The notes under the pieces are model-generated. The model was not told where the DNA came from and did not search any database. It saw nothing but the letters and a program-made list of their open reading frames with translations. 64,000 nucleotides of DNA from Sneathiella limimaris (lineage in GTDB: Bacteria; Pseudomonadota; Alphaproteobacteria; Sneathiellales; Sneathiellaceae). The DNA is taken from the NCBI RefSeq assembly GCF_012932565.1, contig NZ_JABBYJ010000001.1, forward strand, positions 1,364,001 through 1,428,000, read 5' to 3'. Below are positions 519 to 36,611 of this stretch, in pieces. The first letter of the stretch is position 1, and the number at the start of each line of letters is the position of its first letter. The translations under genes were made by a program, and so were the position numbers.

Positions 519-1433
519 GTGTCTGACACAAGCTTGTTACAGGACAGCACAGCCCGGGCGTATCAAGGCGCCCGGGCAAGTGACTATTTCGCCCTTCTGA
601 AACCACGGGTGATGTCACTTGTTGTGTTTACGGGAATTGTTGGACTGGCCGTTGCGCCAGGTGACATTCACCCTGTCCTTGCCTTTACAGCATTGTTATG
701 TATCGCTGTTGGAGCAGGTGCCTCTGGTGCCATCAACATGTGGTACGATGCAGATATCGACCAGATTATGGAACGGACGAAGAACCGTCCCATCCCTGCT
801 GGCAAGGTAACTGCAGGAGAAGCCCTTGGCATTGGAGTAGCCCTTTCGGTTGCTTCGGTCCTTCTGATGGGCCTCGCGGTTAATATGGTTGCAGCTACGT
901 TGCTAGCAATCACTATTGCCTTCTACATTTTCGTTTACACTATGTGGCTGAAACGTCGGACACCGCAGAACATTGTCATTGGTGGTGCCGCCGGCGCATT
1001 CCCTCCCATGATCGGGTGGGCTGCCGTAACAGGTGACGTCAGCATCGAAAGCCTTGTGCTTTTTGCTGTTATTTTCTTCTGGACACCTCCGCATTTCTGG
1101 GCCCTGTCACTTTGGCGGGATATTGATTATGCGAACGCTGGTGTTCCGATGCTGCCCGTAGTGGCTGGTCGAGAAGCTACTCGCCGCCAAGTGCTGATTT
1201 ACAGCGTTCTTTTGCTGCCCATTGGTGTTTCACCATATTTCCTGGGTTTTGCAGGACCAGTCTTCGGCGCAGGTGCAGCTATTCTTGGAGCAATATTCCT
1301 TTATGGTGCCGTGAAAGTCTGGCTCAAGAAGGATGAGAAAAGTGCCAAGCAGCTTTTTGCTTTCTCTTTGCTTTACCTGTTTTTGATCTTCGCTTTGCTT
1401 CTCGGTGAAGCCATCGTCAAAGGAGTGATCTAA
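519..1433 (+). CDS. ctaB: Protohaem IX farnesyltransferase (haem O synthase)
   Basis: This 304-residue UbiA-family membrane prenyltransferase transfers a farnesyl group to haem b, making haem O, the precursor of haem A for the oxidase. The Asp-rich motif [19 protein letters not shown] (near residues 70-90) is the diphosphate/Mg site of the family. Several hydrophobic helices follow. The start is GTG at 519 with GGAG about 7 bases upstream, 16 bases after ctaD. The gene ends TAATG, overlapping the next small gene by one base, so translation is probably coupled. Length is normal for the family. Confidence 0.96.
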
Positions 1434-31316: not shown

Positions 31317-32505
<1,189 letters not shown>

Positions 32506-32514
<9 letters not shown>

Positions 32515-33108
32515 AGTGGATTCCAGAAGTTTCCGGATTGGGGCGAAGCTTCGCCTATGTTGTGGCGTGACACCAAATTGCAACAATCCCTTGCGATGCT
32601 CGGCTGTCCCGTAACCCGCATTTCGCTCCCATCCATAGTGCGGATATCGCTCAGAAAGAGCCTTCATTTTTCGATCCCGTGTCACTTTTGCAACAATGGA
32701 TGCCGCCGAAATGGAGAGTGATTTGTTGTCACCTTTTACTATAAGTTGTGTTGAGGGGTGAATTTTCGGATCTCGGTTGCCGTCCACAAGCAGATGATCC
32801 GGCTTTTGGGGAAGGGCTTCCACCGCCCGTTTCATAGCCAGAAAAGTGGCTTTCAGGATATTAAATTCATCGATTTCGGGGACGCTGGCCTCTCCAATTC
32901 CAACCATTGCAGAGCTGATGATCAGATCGAAAAGGGCCTCTCGGCTTTTTAACGACAGCTTTTTTGAGTCCGTCATTCCCTCCGGTACATTCGTTCGATC
33001 CAGGATCACAGCAGCTGCGACAACGGGGCCCGCAAAGGGGCCCCGTCCAACTTCATCCACACCAGCGATCAAACCATCCAGCTGATCCTCAAAGGCAAAG
33101 TCCGGCAT
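32506..33108 (-). CDS. rnhB: Ribonuclease HII
   Basis: The 200-residue enzyme removes ribonucleotides from DNA. The catalytic Asp-Glu pair is in GVDEVGRGPFAGPVVAAAV, and later acidic residues lie in LLVDGNRDP and AASIVAKVTRDR. The C-terminal YGWERNAGYGTAEHR is typical. It starts 3 bases after the AhpD-like stop, so the two are co-transcribed. Adjacency to ccrM is common in alphaproteobacteria. Confidence 0.96.
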
Positions 33109-33111
33109 GGA

Positions 33112-33693
33112 TCAGCGTGGCTCCCGTCCCATGGCGTAAAACTCGTCATTAGGACGCATTGCTGTCAGGTTTGCCATTCGATTGCTCAATCCAAAGAAGG
33201 CGGTGATGGCGCCGATATCCCAGATATCCTCGTCATCAAATCCATGGCTACGTAAAATCTCGAAGTCCGCCTCTCCAACCGTGTGGGCTTCGTTGGAAAT
33301 TTTCAGGGCGAAATCCAGCATGGCTTTTTGCCGCTCTGTAATGTCAGCCTTGTGATAGTTGGTGGCAATCTGATCGGCGATCAGCGGCTCTTTTGCATAA
33401 ATCCGAAGAAGAGCTCCGTGAGCCACCACACAATAAAGACAGTGATTGTCGGATGAGGTGGCCACAATGATCATTTCTTTTTCTGCCTTGGTCAGGTTGG
33501 ACCCTTCTCTCAGCATGATCGCATCATGATAATTGAAAAAGGCGCGCAACTCGTCTGGCCGATGGGCGAGGGCGAGAAACACATTGGGAATAAAGCCTGC
33601 TTTTTCCTGAACACCAAGGATCAACTCTTTCATATCCTCTGGCAGATCCAGGACATCGGGAACAGAATACCGACTGATGGGTTTTACACTCAT
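33112..33693 (-). CDS. AhpD-like peroxidase-related protein (CMD family)
   Basis: The 193-residue protein belongs to the carboxymuconolactone decarboxylase/AhpD superfamily. The redox motif CLYCVVAHG (CxxC plus His) is intact, and the C-terminal YAMGREPR and central GFIPNVFLALAHRPDELRAF fit the peroxidase-related enzyme subfamily. I use ATG 33693 with TAAGGAT upstream instead of the frame-extending start at 33711. It follows acuI by 18 bases, suggesting a shared transcript and a role in redox or electrophile defence. The physiological substrate is unknown. Confidence 0.88.
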   Translation of the reverse strand: MSVKPISRYSVPDVLDLPEDMKELILGVQEKAGFIPNVFLALAHRPDELRAFFNYHDAIMLREGSNLTKAEKEMIIVATSSDNHCLYCVVAHGALLRIYAKEPLIADQIATNYHKADITERQKAMLDFALKISNEAHTVGEADFEILRSHGFDDEDIWDIGAITAFFGLSNRMANLTAMRPNDEFYAMGREPR

Positions 33694-33711
33694 TTTAGGA
33701 TCCTTACCCAA

Positions 33712-34692
33712 TTATGCGTTTACGTTGACGACGACACGGCCTTTGACCTTGCCTTCCAGCAGGGACTTGGCTGTCGGAATGGCTTCTTCCAGGGTGATCT
33801 CTTTGGTGATCAGGTCGATATGGGACATATCCAGATCTTTGGCGAGCCGTGCCCAGGCTTTCAAGCGTTTCTCTTTCGGGCACATCACACTGTCCACACC
33901 GTTCAGGATCACGCCGCGCAGGATGAAGGGCATAACGGTTGCTGGAAGATCAAACCCTTGTGCAAGACCGCAAGCTGCAACCGCACCGCCATATTTAATA
34001 CCAGCGCAAACATTGGCGAGGGTGTGACTGCCAACCGTATCAACGGCGCCGGCCCACTGCTCTTTGCCAAGTGGGCGTCCTTTTTCGGATAGCTCCGCAC
34101 GGTTGATAATCTCAGCAGTGCCAAGGGATTTTAGATAGTCTTCCTCTTCCGGGCGACCTGTGGATGCCACAACCCGGTATCCCAGCTTAGCAAGCAGGGA
34201 AACCGCGACACTGCCTACACCGCCAACTGCACCAGTAACCAGAATGTCGCCCTTGTCTGGCGTGACGCCCTGATCTTCAAGGGCCATTACGCACAGCATT
34301 GCCGTATAGCCGGCTGTTCCAATTGCCATCGCCTGTTTTGCGCTAAATTTTTCAGGCAGCGGGACCAGCCAGTCACCGTTCAGGCGGATCTTCTCGGCAA
34401 GGCCACCCCAATGGACTTCGCCAACACCCCAACCATTCAGAACAACTTTGTCTCCGGCTTTATAGTCAGCGTGACTGCTTTCCTCGACCACGCCGGCAAC
34501 ATCGATACCTGGGATCATCGGGAATTTGCGCACCACAGGTGAGGCGCCTGTAATCGCCAGCCCGTCTTTATAATTCAGGGTCGAATAATCCACCTTGATT
34601 TTGACATCTCCCTCCGGCAGATCCTGCTCGTCCACCTCGGTCAGCTTGGCTTCGTACTTATCGTCATCTTTGGTGATGAGAATGGCCTTCAT
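33712..34692 (-). CDS. acuI: Acryloyl-CoA reductase-type MDR oxidoreductase (AcuI/YhdH)
   Basis: The 326-residue NADPH-dependent medium-chain reductase matches AcuI/Yhd[48 protein letters not shown], and the Rossmann [20 protein letters not shown]. AcuI reduces toxic acryloyl-CoA to propionyl-CoA. No zinc ligands are present, as expected. The TetR gene upstream resembles AcuR, which represses acuI and responds to acrylate. No DMSP lyase is nearby, so detoxification of internally formed acryloyl-CoA is as likely as DMSP use. AAGGAAA precedes the ATG. Confidence 0.9.
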
Positions 34693-34728
34693 GACAGTTT
34701 CCTTTTTTCAGCACATTGAGTTTTGAAT

Positions 34729-35373
34729 TTATTGGGTTGAAATTTTGAGTTGGGAGAAGAACACCTCCCGAAACAGATTAAGCGGTTCGGTCGATTTCAC
34801 CAGTTTGGCCCGAAGGATCGCGCCCTCCCAGCCTATCCAGAAGAAGGTCGCCATTTTATGGGTCTCAATATCCGGACTTAAATCGCCAATGACCTGAGCC
34901 GCGTCAAGGCATCTGGCAATTCGGTTTTGCCAGCCTTCAAACACAGCTTCCAGCCGTTCACTAAACTCGGCGTTCAGGCCGCTGGCTTCCTGTCCCATAT
35001 TGCCGATCAAGCAACCGCGGCGAAATTCATGTCGCTCGATCCAGCCGATCGCACCATCCATAAAATTCTGCAGGCGTTTGAGCGGCGGGACATCCTCGGC
35101 AAGGAGATACCCGTCCAGCAGGTGGTCAAAATACCGGCCATAAGCCTCCAGCACTTCCAGTCCAAACGCGTCTTTGCTCTTAAAATAGTGATAGAAGGAC
35201 CCTTTGGGAATATCCGTTCCTTCCAGAAGCTCGCTGATTCCGGTGCTGATAAAGCCCTTCTCAGTCAGCAGCTCCATACCCTTACGAACAAGTAAGTCGC
35301 GTCCCTCCATCTCCCCAGCAAACTGCTTGGGCGGCCGACCACGTCCTCTTTTTAAGGGTTCTGAATTGCTCAT
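34729..35373 (-). CDS. acuR: TetR-family repressor, AcuR-like
   Basis: The 214-residue protein has an N-terminal helix-turn-helix (GISELLEGTDIPKGSFYHYFKSKDAFGLEVLEAY) and the C-terminal FRRGCLIGNMGQE and FWIGWEGAILRAKL blocks seen in AcuR/NemR-like regulators. The Cys in RRGCLIGN is conserved in this group and may sense electrophiles. The gene is upstream of acuI in the same direction. A 15-base palindrome lies 9 bases upstream of its start, indicating autoregulation. Confidence 0.85.
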   Translation of the reverse strand: MSNSEPLKRGRGRPPKQFAGEMEGRDLLVRKGMELLTEKGFISTGISELLEGTDIPKGSFYHYFKSKDAFGLEVLEAYGRYFDHLLDGYLLAEDVPPLKRLQNFMDGAIGWIERHEFRRGCLIGNMGQEASGLNAEFSERLEAVFEGWQNRIARCLDAAQVIGDLSPDIETHKMATFFWIGWEGAILRAKLVKSTEPLNLFREVFFSQLKISTQ

Positions 35374-35444: not shown

Positions 35445-36533
35445 TTAAAACAGGCTGAACTGATCCGTTGGTTTTGAGGGGCGGATGAAGCGGTCGGTGG
35501 CGAGGTCGTATTTGCGGCCCTTGAAGCCAAGGTCGCGGCAGATTTTGCTGAACCGGCTGCGGATCAGTTCTGCGTAAGGACCGCTCCCAGACATGCGGCT
35601 GCCAAAATTGCCGTCGTTATCCTTACCCTCCCGCATGGAGCGGATGAGTTTCATGACCTTGGAGGCCCGGTCCGGATAGTGCTCTTCCAGCCAACCTTGG
35701 AACAGATCCGAAACCTCCAGCGGCAGTCGGATCGGGATGTAGACGGCTTGCGTTGCGCCGGCGTCCCTCGCTGCTTTCAGAACGGCTTCCATCTCCATGT
35801 CATTTATGGCCGGAATAACCGGGGCCATCTGGACAATCACCCTTATTCCTGCGCGGCTTAATTTCTCGATCGCGGCGAGGCGTTTGTGGGGCGCCGATGC
35901 TCGTGGCTCCATCCTTCTGGATAACCGATTATCGAGGGACGTGACGGACAGACAAACGCAAGTGAGGTTTTCTGATGCGGCACGCCTTAGAAGATCCATA
36001 TCTCGCAAGACCAGATCAGACTTTGTCGTGATGGTAAAGGGGTGTTTGACCTCGACCAGCAGTTCCAGAAGCTCCCTCGTGATCCTGTAGGTTTTCTCGA
36101 TCGGTTGATAAGGGTCGGTGTTGGTGCCAAAAGCGATGGGTGCGGGACTATAGCCGGGATGGCTCAACGTTTTTTGCAAAAGCGTCGCTGCGTTCGGTTT
36201 GGCGTAAAGCTGGCTTTCAAAATCAAGACCGGGGGACAGATCCAGATACGCATGAGTTGGCCTTGCGTAGCAATAAACACAGCCATGTTCGCACCCTCGA
36301 TAAGGGTTGATGGATCGGTCAAAAGGCAGATCCGGAGATGTGTTCTTTGAGAGGATCGTTTTGGGATGTTCCAGTGTGACCTGGGTCCGAAGGGGAAGCG
36401 CTTCCTCTTCTATCTGCCACCCATCATCGGCAGCGATCCGCTGGCTGGTCAGGAAGCGTCCATCCGGGTTTTGGGTCGCACCGCGCCCGCGGATGGTTTT
36501 TTCGCCTAAATTGTCCAGATTTCGGATGTTCAT
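35445..36533 (-). CDS. PA0069-family radical SAM protein (SplB-like)
   Basis: The 362-residue protein has the radical SAM cluster CEHGCVYCYARP and the N-terminal IRGRGATQNPDGRF typical of the PA0069 family, which is related to spore photoproduct lyase. Its function is not established; a DNA-repair or nucleic-acid role is suspected. Upstream there is an alphaproteobacterial LexA-type box and a promoter whose predicted start nearly coincides with the ATG, so the message may be leaderless. No ribosome site precedes the start. Confidence 0.9.
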   Translation of the reverse strand: MNIRNLDNLGEKTIRGRGATQNPDGRFLTSQRIAADDGWQIEEEALPLRTQVTLEHPKTILSKNTSPDLPFDRSINPYRGCEHGCVYCYARPTHAYLDLSPGLDFESQLYAKPNAATLLQKTLSHPGYSPAPIAFGTNTDPYQPIEKTYRITRELLELLVEVKHPFTITTKSDLVLRDMDLLRRAASENLTCVCLSVTSLDNRLSRRMEPRASAPHKRLAAIEKLSRAGIRVIVQMAPVIPAINDMEMEAVLKAARDAGATQAVYIPIRLPLEVSDLFQGWLEEHYPDRASKVMKLIRSMREGKDNDGNFGSRMSGSGPYAELIRSRFSKICRDLGFKGRKYDLATDRFIRPSKPTDQFSLF

Positions 36534-36538
36534 GTTTT

Positions 36539-36566
36539 ATTTTAGCACAGACCATGCTCAAAACAA
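36539..36566 (-). promoter_or_regulatory. Promoter of the radical SAM gene
   Basis: On the minus strand TTGTTT (36566-36561), a 16-base spacer and TAAAAT (36544-36539) lie next to the LexA-type box. The predicted start is about 36532, at the ATG itself. Confidence 0.45.
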
Positions 36567-36581
36567 GAACATTTAGCGAAC
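36567..36581. promoter_or_regulatory. LexA (SOS) box, alphaproteobacterial direct-repeat type
   Basis: GAAC-ATTTAGC-GAAC on the plus strand is GTTC-N7-GTTC on the minus strand, the direct-repeat LexA site known from alphaproteobacteria. It abuts the -35 element of the radical SAM gene, 34 bases before its start. A 17-base palindrome AATAAATAGTATTTATT follows at 36582-36598. Confidence 0.7.
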
Positions 36582-36611
36582 AATAAATAGTATTTATTGA
36601 ATCTGAAGAGT

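Follow-up and report, generated by a model that had tools for sequence, protein, structure and literature searches.

An exact GTTC-N7-GTTC box was found in the genome of Sneathiella limimaris at the promoter of a gene for a PA0069-family radical SAM protein, abutting the -35 element. With a probability of about 0.8, this box is a LexA operator controlling a damage-induced leaderless mRNA for a probable DNA-lesion enzyme, and it is shifted in this genome relative to its place in relatives. LexA bound to GTTC-N7-GTTC would block RNA polymerase from the adjoining -35 element, and RecA on single-stranded DNA would trigger LexA self-cleavage, upon which the radical SAM gene would be transcribed. 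Transcription would begin on the ATG, yielding a leaderless mRNA, and the product, with the predicted fold of spore photoproduct lyase, would most likely act on damaged DNA. The operator would have moved here by one half-site upstream (11 bp, about one helical turn), leaving the promoter in place. SOS control of this gene was largely predicted before; the new observations are an apparent half-site hop and the fixed arrangement in which box, -35, -10, and ATG are conserved.

Promoter of the radical SAM gene

The analyzed stretch of DNA, herein referred to as the window, comprises 64,000 nucleotides. The following features were located in it:

36581-36599, no strand: perfect A+T-rich palindrome of 19 bases, with arms of 9 and an odd centre
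36567-36581, minus strand: LexA-type box GTTCGCTAAATGTTC, predicted operator, exact pattern match, 34-48 nt 5' of the A of the ATG
36556-36570, minus strand: box remnant GTTCTTGTTTTGAGC at the place of the relatives' box; left half retained, right half GAGC instead of GTTC
36561-36566, minus strand: -35 element TTGTTT, adjoining the present box and falling within the ancestral box
36539-36544, minus strand: -10 element TAAAAT, with a spacer of 16 bases to the -35 element; TAnnnT at -12 to -7 is the family pattern
36531-36533, minus strand: ATG at which, from the comparison of loci, transcript and protein are both predicted to begin (leaderless)
35445-36533, minus strand: gene for the PA0069-family radical SAM protein (362 aa; CX3CX2C at residues 81-88; PF04055)
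33112-35373, minus strand: acuR, acuI, and a peroxidase-related gene, separating rnhB from the radical SAM gene
32506-33108, minus strand: rnhB, ribonuclease HII
31317-32396, minus strand: CcrM-like adenine methyltransferase gene (NF050803, 640.6 bits, below the cut-off of 830)

In the window sequence, positions 36567-36581 read GAACATTTAGCGAAC on the plus strand and GTTCGCTAAATGTTC on the strand of the gene. The first-pass annotation had placed an exact box beside the -35 element, and this was confirmed, the box directly adjoining TTGTTT. On the gene's strand, the palindrome is followed by the box, TTGTTT, 16 bases, TAAAAT, 5 bases, and the ATG, whose A is position 36533; the ATG lies 37 nt from the central GTTC. 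A gap of 78 bases separates the radical SAM gene from the nearest preceding reading frame on the same strand, which matches no Pfam or NCBIfam model.

The palindrome just upstream, also pointed out in the first-pass annotation, is present, with a length of 19 bases and not the 17 given there, and overlaps the box by one base. Five perfect palindromes with arms of at least 8 bases were found in the window versus 2.9 expected, and this one is not conserved in the aligned promoters of the genus. For these two reasons, absence from the genus promoters and little excess, a role as a second operator was rejected; the palindrome is probably incidental noise.

The same annotation had the predicted transcript start coinciding with the ATG and saw no ribosome site. 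Both points agree with the sequence of the window, in which TAAAAT ends 5 bases from the ATG and none of GGAG, GAGG, AGGA, AAGG, GGGG, or GGTG precedes it. Immediately before the ATG, the gene's strand has the codons TAA AAC, which leaves no in-frame start farther upstream, and a single start is listed for this gene.

A coding-strand box was found in 144 of 158 class loci, the window being counted on its central GTTC. At 88 of these 144 loci, an ATG in the frame of the gene lies 37-42 nt from the start of the box (2 and 3 loci for the other two frames). At 93 loci, 77 of them with the start at 38-40 nt, an ATG or GTG was found 34-42 nt from the box; 50 loci have other starts only and one has none. 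The layout found in the majority of boxed loci is therefore not universal, since 51 of the 144 lack a start at 34-42 nt. In the smaller set, this applies to 7 of 69 coding-strand boxes (G046, G057, G077, G080, G089, G118, and G137).

When loci were aligned on the start, the conserved columns were T at -12 (0.63), A at -11 (0.60), T at -7 (0.70), and C at -1 (0.63). The columns at -12, -11, and -7 fall where a -10 element is normally found if transcription starts at the ATG. One of GGAG, GAGG, or AGGA precedes 12 of the 93 near starts versus 31 of the 42 loci whose ATG or GTG is more distant from the box (Fisher p = 5e-12, a value overstated by treating related loci as independent). Taken together, promoter geometry and the scarcity of such motifs support a predicted leaderless start for the radical SAM mRNA. 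Leaderless SOS mRNAs are predicted by the fixed distances between box, -10 element, and ATG. In the relatives, the -35 element (TTGNTT) sits within the spacer of the box, which explains the conservation of this spacer.

Distribution of the box and earlier predictions

Of 78 loci with a PA0069-family gene, 70 have an exact GTTC-N7-GTTC upstream, no farther than 300 bases from the anchor codon; these comprise all 24 from the window's genus, Sneathiella, and 46 of 54 from the same class outside this genus. The 78 loci are those of the window, of 76 relatives scoring above the family cut-off, and of G009, where the gene is partial; matches excluded for scoring under the cut-off are those of G003 (second match), G047, G066, G068, G078, G088, G092, G117, and G135. 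One locus of the 70 (L051) has its box on the opposite strand only and is not counted among the 69 coding-strand boxes. The box was also found in 75 of 80 named contigs (the best 80 of 589) and in 23 of 26 new loci added for the class, all these counts being not independent because the locus sets partly overlap (for example, L111 with G005 and L129 with G025). As controls, 200 shuffles gave a mean of 0.685 and a maximum of 4 of 78 loci, while spacings of 3-6 and 8-11 gave 0-2 of 78, as did the reversed half-site CTTG at spacings of 3-11. The box is conserved before the orthologues, the window's own site being displaced by 11 bp, and this class-wide conservation supports the SOS control that had been proposed for the gene from the window alone.

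The exact box is absent in 8 loci of the 78 and in 5 of the 80. That these genomes lack it because LexA was lost was rejected for the 8 boxless genomes of the 78, all of which have lexA. A one-mismatch site was found in 6 of these 8 boxless loci, a raw count uncorrected for chance. At one further locus (L276, genome G321), two GTTC-N7-GTTC boxes were found upstream of the radical SAM gene, 19 bases apart.

In other classes of the phylum, represented by all 32 genomes above the cut-off, presumably beta- and gammaproteobacteria, the orthologue is preceded by a different motif. CTGT-N8-ACAG, which we take to be the LexA box of beta- and gammaproteobacteria, was found upstream of the orthologue in 23 of the 32 genomes, and CTGT at other spacings from 4 to 12 in 0-1 of 32. 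GTTC-N7-GTTC was found upstream of the orthologue in none of these 32 genomes, and CTGT-N8-ACAG in none of the 158 class loci. Since the type of box follows the class, LexA appears to keep its hold on the radical SAM gene even as the motif differs between classes. The class-wide footprint thus points to a gene that is a steady LexA target under two types of LexA box.

The pattern itself is not enriched. In the window, GTTC-N7-GTTC was observed twice versus 1.91 expected, and genome-wide 92 sites were found versus 138 for the reversed pattern; whole-genome enrichment was accordingly rejected as evidence for the box. Its significance comes from position and conservation and not from the 15-base match alone. 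The only other GAAC-N7-GAAC in the window (771-785) failed the filter for sites outside longer reading frames. This filter retained 14 of the 92 genome sites (a stricter first filter left 8), and 6 of these 14 lie before the radical SAM gene and the following five genes:

lexA, C1:2517643-2518374, plus strand: box at 2517586-2517600
recA, C1:2647897-2648859, minus strand: box at 2649018-2649032
tag, with box: TIGR00624, 231.5 bits (cut-off 232.5); PF03352, 260.6 bits
mmcB-like gene, with box: PF06319, 153 bits
imuA-like gene, with box: NF033429, 43.2 bits (cut-off 150)

The scan of the genome for the motif before SOS genes that the first-pass annotation had outlined, run in part, thus placed it before lexA, recA, and the imuA-like gene; the genome has lexA, and its own lexA and recA both carry GTTC-N7-GTTC. 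The start codons of tag and mmcB were chosen by hand, both frames extending upstream past the box. The other 8 of the 14 sites have no recognized SOS or repair gene and no radical SAM gene behind them; they include sites before a phage-type integrase gene and a GFA-family gene.

Some of these sites have features of their own. The box of the imuA-like gene (L030, site 1501), GTTCTTGTTTTGTTC, is the commonest box in the radical SAM promoters of the genus and is also located 40 nt before the ATG, but TATAAT lies at a different distance. A GTTC-N7-GTTC was found 170 nt before the phage-type integrase gene (PF12167; L018, site 1501), which is possibly a case of a mobile element under SOS control. 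Two boxes about 860 bases apart (L020, sites 1501 and 2359) lie one before the mmcB-like repair gene and the other 18 nt before the GFA-family gene on the opposite strand.

GTTC-N7-GTTC is described as the LexA box of alphaproteobacteria in the available part of a work on Caulobacter (PMC12700426), whose SOS promoters have the same motif as that found here; two of them share GTTCttgttatGTTC, which is close to the consensus of the radical SAM promoters. The terms "spore photoproduct" and "mmcB" are absent from the main text of that paper as available. LexA control of splB was predicted for alpha- and betaproteobacteria in 2012 (Sanchez-Alberola et al., PMC3323433), and the splB of that work would belong to the PA0069 family. 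The argument there runs parallel to the present one: in the accessible portion of that paper, LexA sites are described for a homologue of spore photoproduct lyase in two groups that differ in LexA motif. The species treated there have several chromosomes and include no Sneathiella, and the leaderless layout, the -35 element inside the box, and the shifted box are found here and not in that portion. In the text available of another paper, the SOS genes of Bacteroidetes and of other groups also include SplB (COG1533), with other LexA motifs and no alphaproteobacterial promoter anatomy (PMC8565304).

No paper was found in which PA0069 appears together with LexA, and the papers on Rv2578c and PA0069, judged by title, include none on SOS. 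A 2006 study by Cirz is said to list PA0069 in the LexA regulon of Pseudomonas aeruginosa. Both "radical SAM" and "splB" are absent from PMC13384398, PMC12907096, and PMC6473078. Among the matches listed in a partial view of the literature, no paper was found by title on a conserved geometry of box, -35, -10, and ATG or on a half-site hop.

Apparent shift of the proposed operator

The distance from the box to the anchor codon is 77-81 bases in the 23 genus relatives and 90 in the window. When aligned on the promoter, the window reads GTTCgctaaatGTTCttgttttGAGC, and 14 of the 23 relatives read GTTCttgttttGTTC, the remaining relatives having a close variant. In the window, the right half of the relatives' box is now GAGC, its left half is the right half of the present box, and the new left half lies 11 bp upstream. 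The box encloses the -35 element in the relatives and adjoins it in the window. The window's spacer, GCTAAAT, is unlike the conserved TTGNTTT, as would be expected if the spacer no longer doubles as the -35 element.

These observations are compatible with a LexA operator able to hop by one half-site, moving 11 bp from enclosing to abutting the -35 element with the leaderless promoter unmoved, a proposal toward which we lean with some reserve. The shared GTTC would have served as the left half of the box and later as its right half, and the -35 element would be freed from the operator with hardly any change in the face of the helix that the repressor occupies. Relatives with three half-sites in register, as an intermediate of such a hop, were sought and none was found among 157 loci.

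Alternatively, the ancestral operator may have decayed by change of GTTC to GAGC, the upstream GTTC having arisen by chance, which would leave the gene outside the SOS regulon in this genome and expressed constitutively. The loss of the conserved right half and the altered spacer speak for such a decay, as does the fact that in the rest of the window and the genome the pattern is no commoner than expected by chance. Yet a GTTC, whose background frequency is about 0.0034 at any one position, is located exactly where a half-site is needed, and at this place none of the 143 other boxed loci has one; moreover, all 23 genus relatives retain a box. We regard decay as rather improbable and, comparing the promoter sequences, infer that the shift is better read as a replacement of the operator under selection. 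If so, the shifted box would be a small and clean case of a repressor site replaced without movement of the promoter.

Gene product and gene neighbourhood

The product belongs to the PA0069 family, with 502.2 bits to NF033668 (cut-off 360) over positions 1-348 of the 348-position profile. Its structure was modelled from 21 sequences (mean pLDDT 75.3, pTM 0.77). The closest solved fold to this model is that of spore photoproduct lyase (Foldseek E 6.6e-8), with Z 16.1 and rmsd 3.5 over 245 aligned residues; the next family, lipoyl synthase, reaches Z 13.2. In both structure comparisons, the six best matches of the model are structures of spore photoproduct lyase (PDB 4fhc and mutants), with which the protein shares the CX3CX2C motif besides the predicted fold (Z 16). 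The relationship to SplB suggested in the first-pass annotation holds, then, at the level of the modelled fold. At 12-16% identity, the lyase is missed by sequence searches, being absent from the Pfam matches, the five NCBIfam matches, and the sequence matches to solved structures.

C81, C85, and C88 are present in 21 of 21 sequences, and no further cysteine is conserved throughout the family. Crystallised spore photoproduct lyase has a further catalytic cysteine, Cys140. The column of residue 130, near where its counterpart might be expected, contains Cys in 9 of 21 sequences and Pro in the window. Spore photoproduct lyase is not known to need light, so the label "photolyase" deserves care. 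Such proteins are called photolyases in the available parts of PMC3323433, PMC3765255, and PMC3925955.

A DNA substrate for the radical SAM enzyme is plausible in view of the modelled fold. The gene could also be SOS-controlled with a product outside DNA repair, modifying RNA, protein, or a small molecule under stress. The radical SAM fold is common to enzymes of many functions, neither the lyase model nor a lyase sequence was found among the matches mentioned above, and outside the cluster no cysteine is invariant, all of which leaves this explanation as a real but minor possibility. It is opposed by the six best fold matches, all to an enzyme of DNA lesions, and by the status of the gene as an apparent LexA target under two types of box. 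Still less probable, and in our opinion very hard to sustain, is that the operator serves the downstream rnhB and ccrM, the radical SAM gene being simply the first in the unit. It is true that in 81 of 110 loci rnhB follows the radical SAM gene on the same strand, mostly within 400 bases, and that ccrM follows rnhB in the genus. However, the window and four relatives (G008, G014, G018, and G011) have acuR, acuI, and the peroxidase-related gene inserted, and in G024 rnhB lies about 2 kb on, yet in all of them the box is at the start of the radical SAM gene. The radical SAM enzyme would be well worth screening for activity on DNA lesions.

Upstream, moaB was found in 57 of 110 loci, the counts for both moaB and rnhB being limited by flanks of 1.5-3 kb. 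Downstream sequence was available for the window and 16 relatives, and in 11 of these 17 genomes rnhB and ccrM directly follow the radical SAM gene; the three-gene insert, found in the window and 4 of the 16 relatives, is absent in 11 of the 16. In G011, the three insert genes are present and rnhB was not seen in the stretch. All 17 genomes, with or without the insert, have the box, which therefore belongs with the radical SAM gene. In G008 (L071), the match to the radical SAM gene is split into two overlapping parts that lie in different frames, which points to a broken or misassembled gene; its box is intact.
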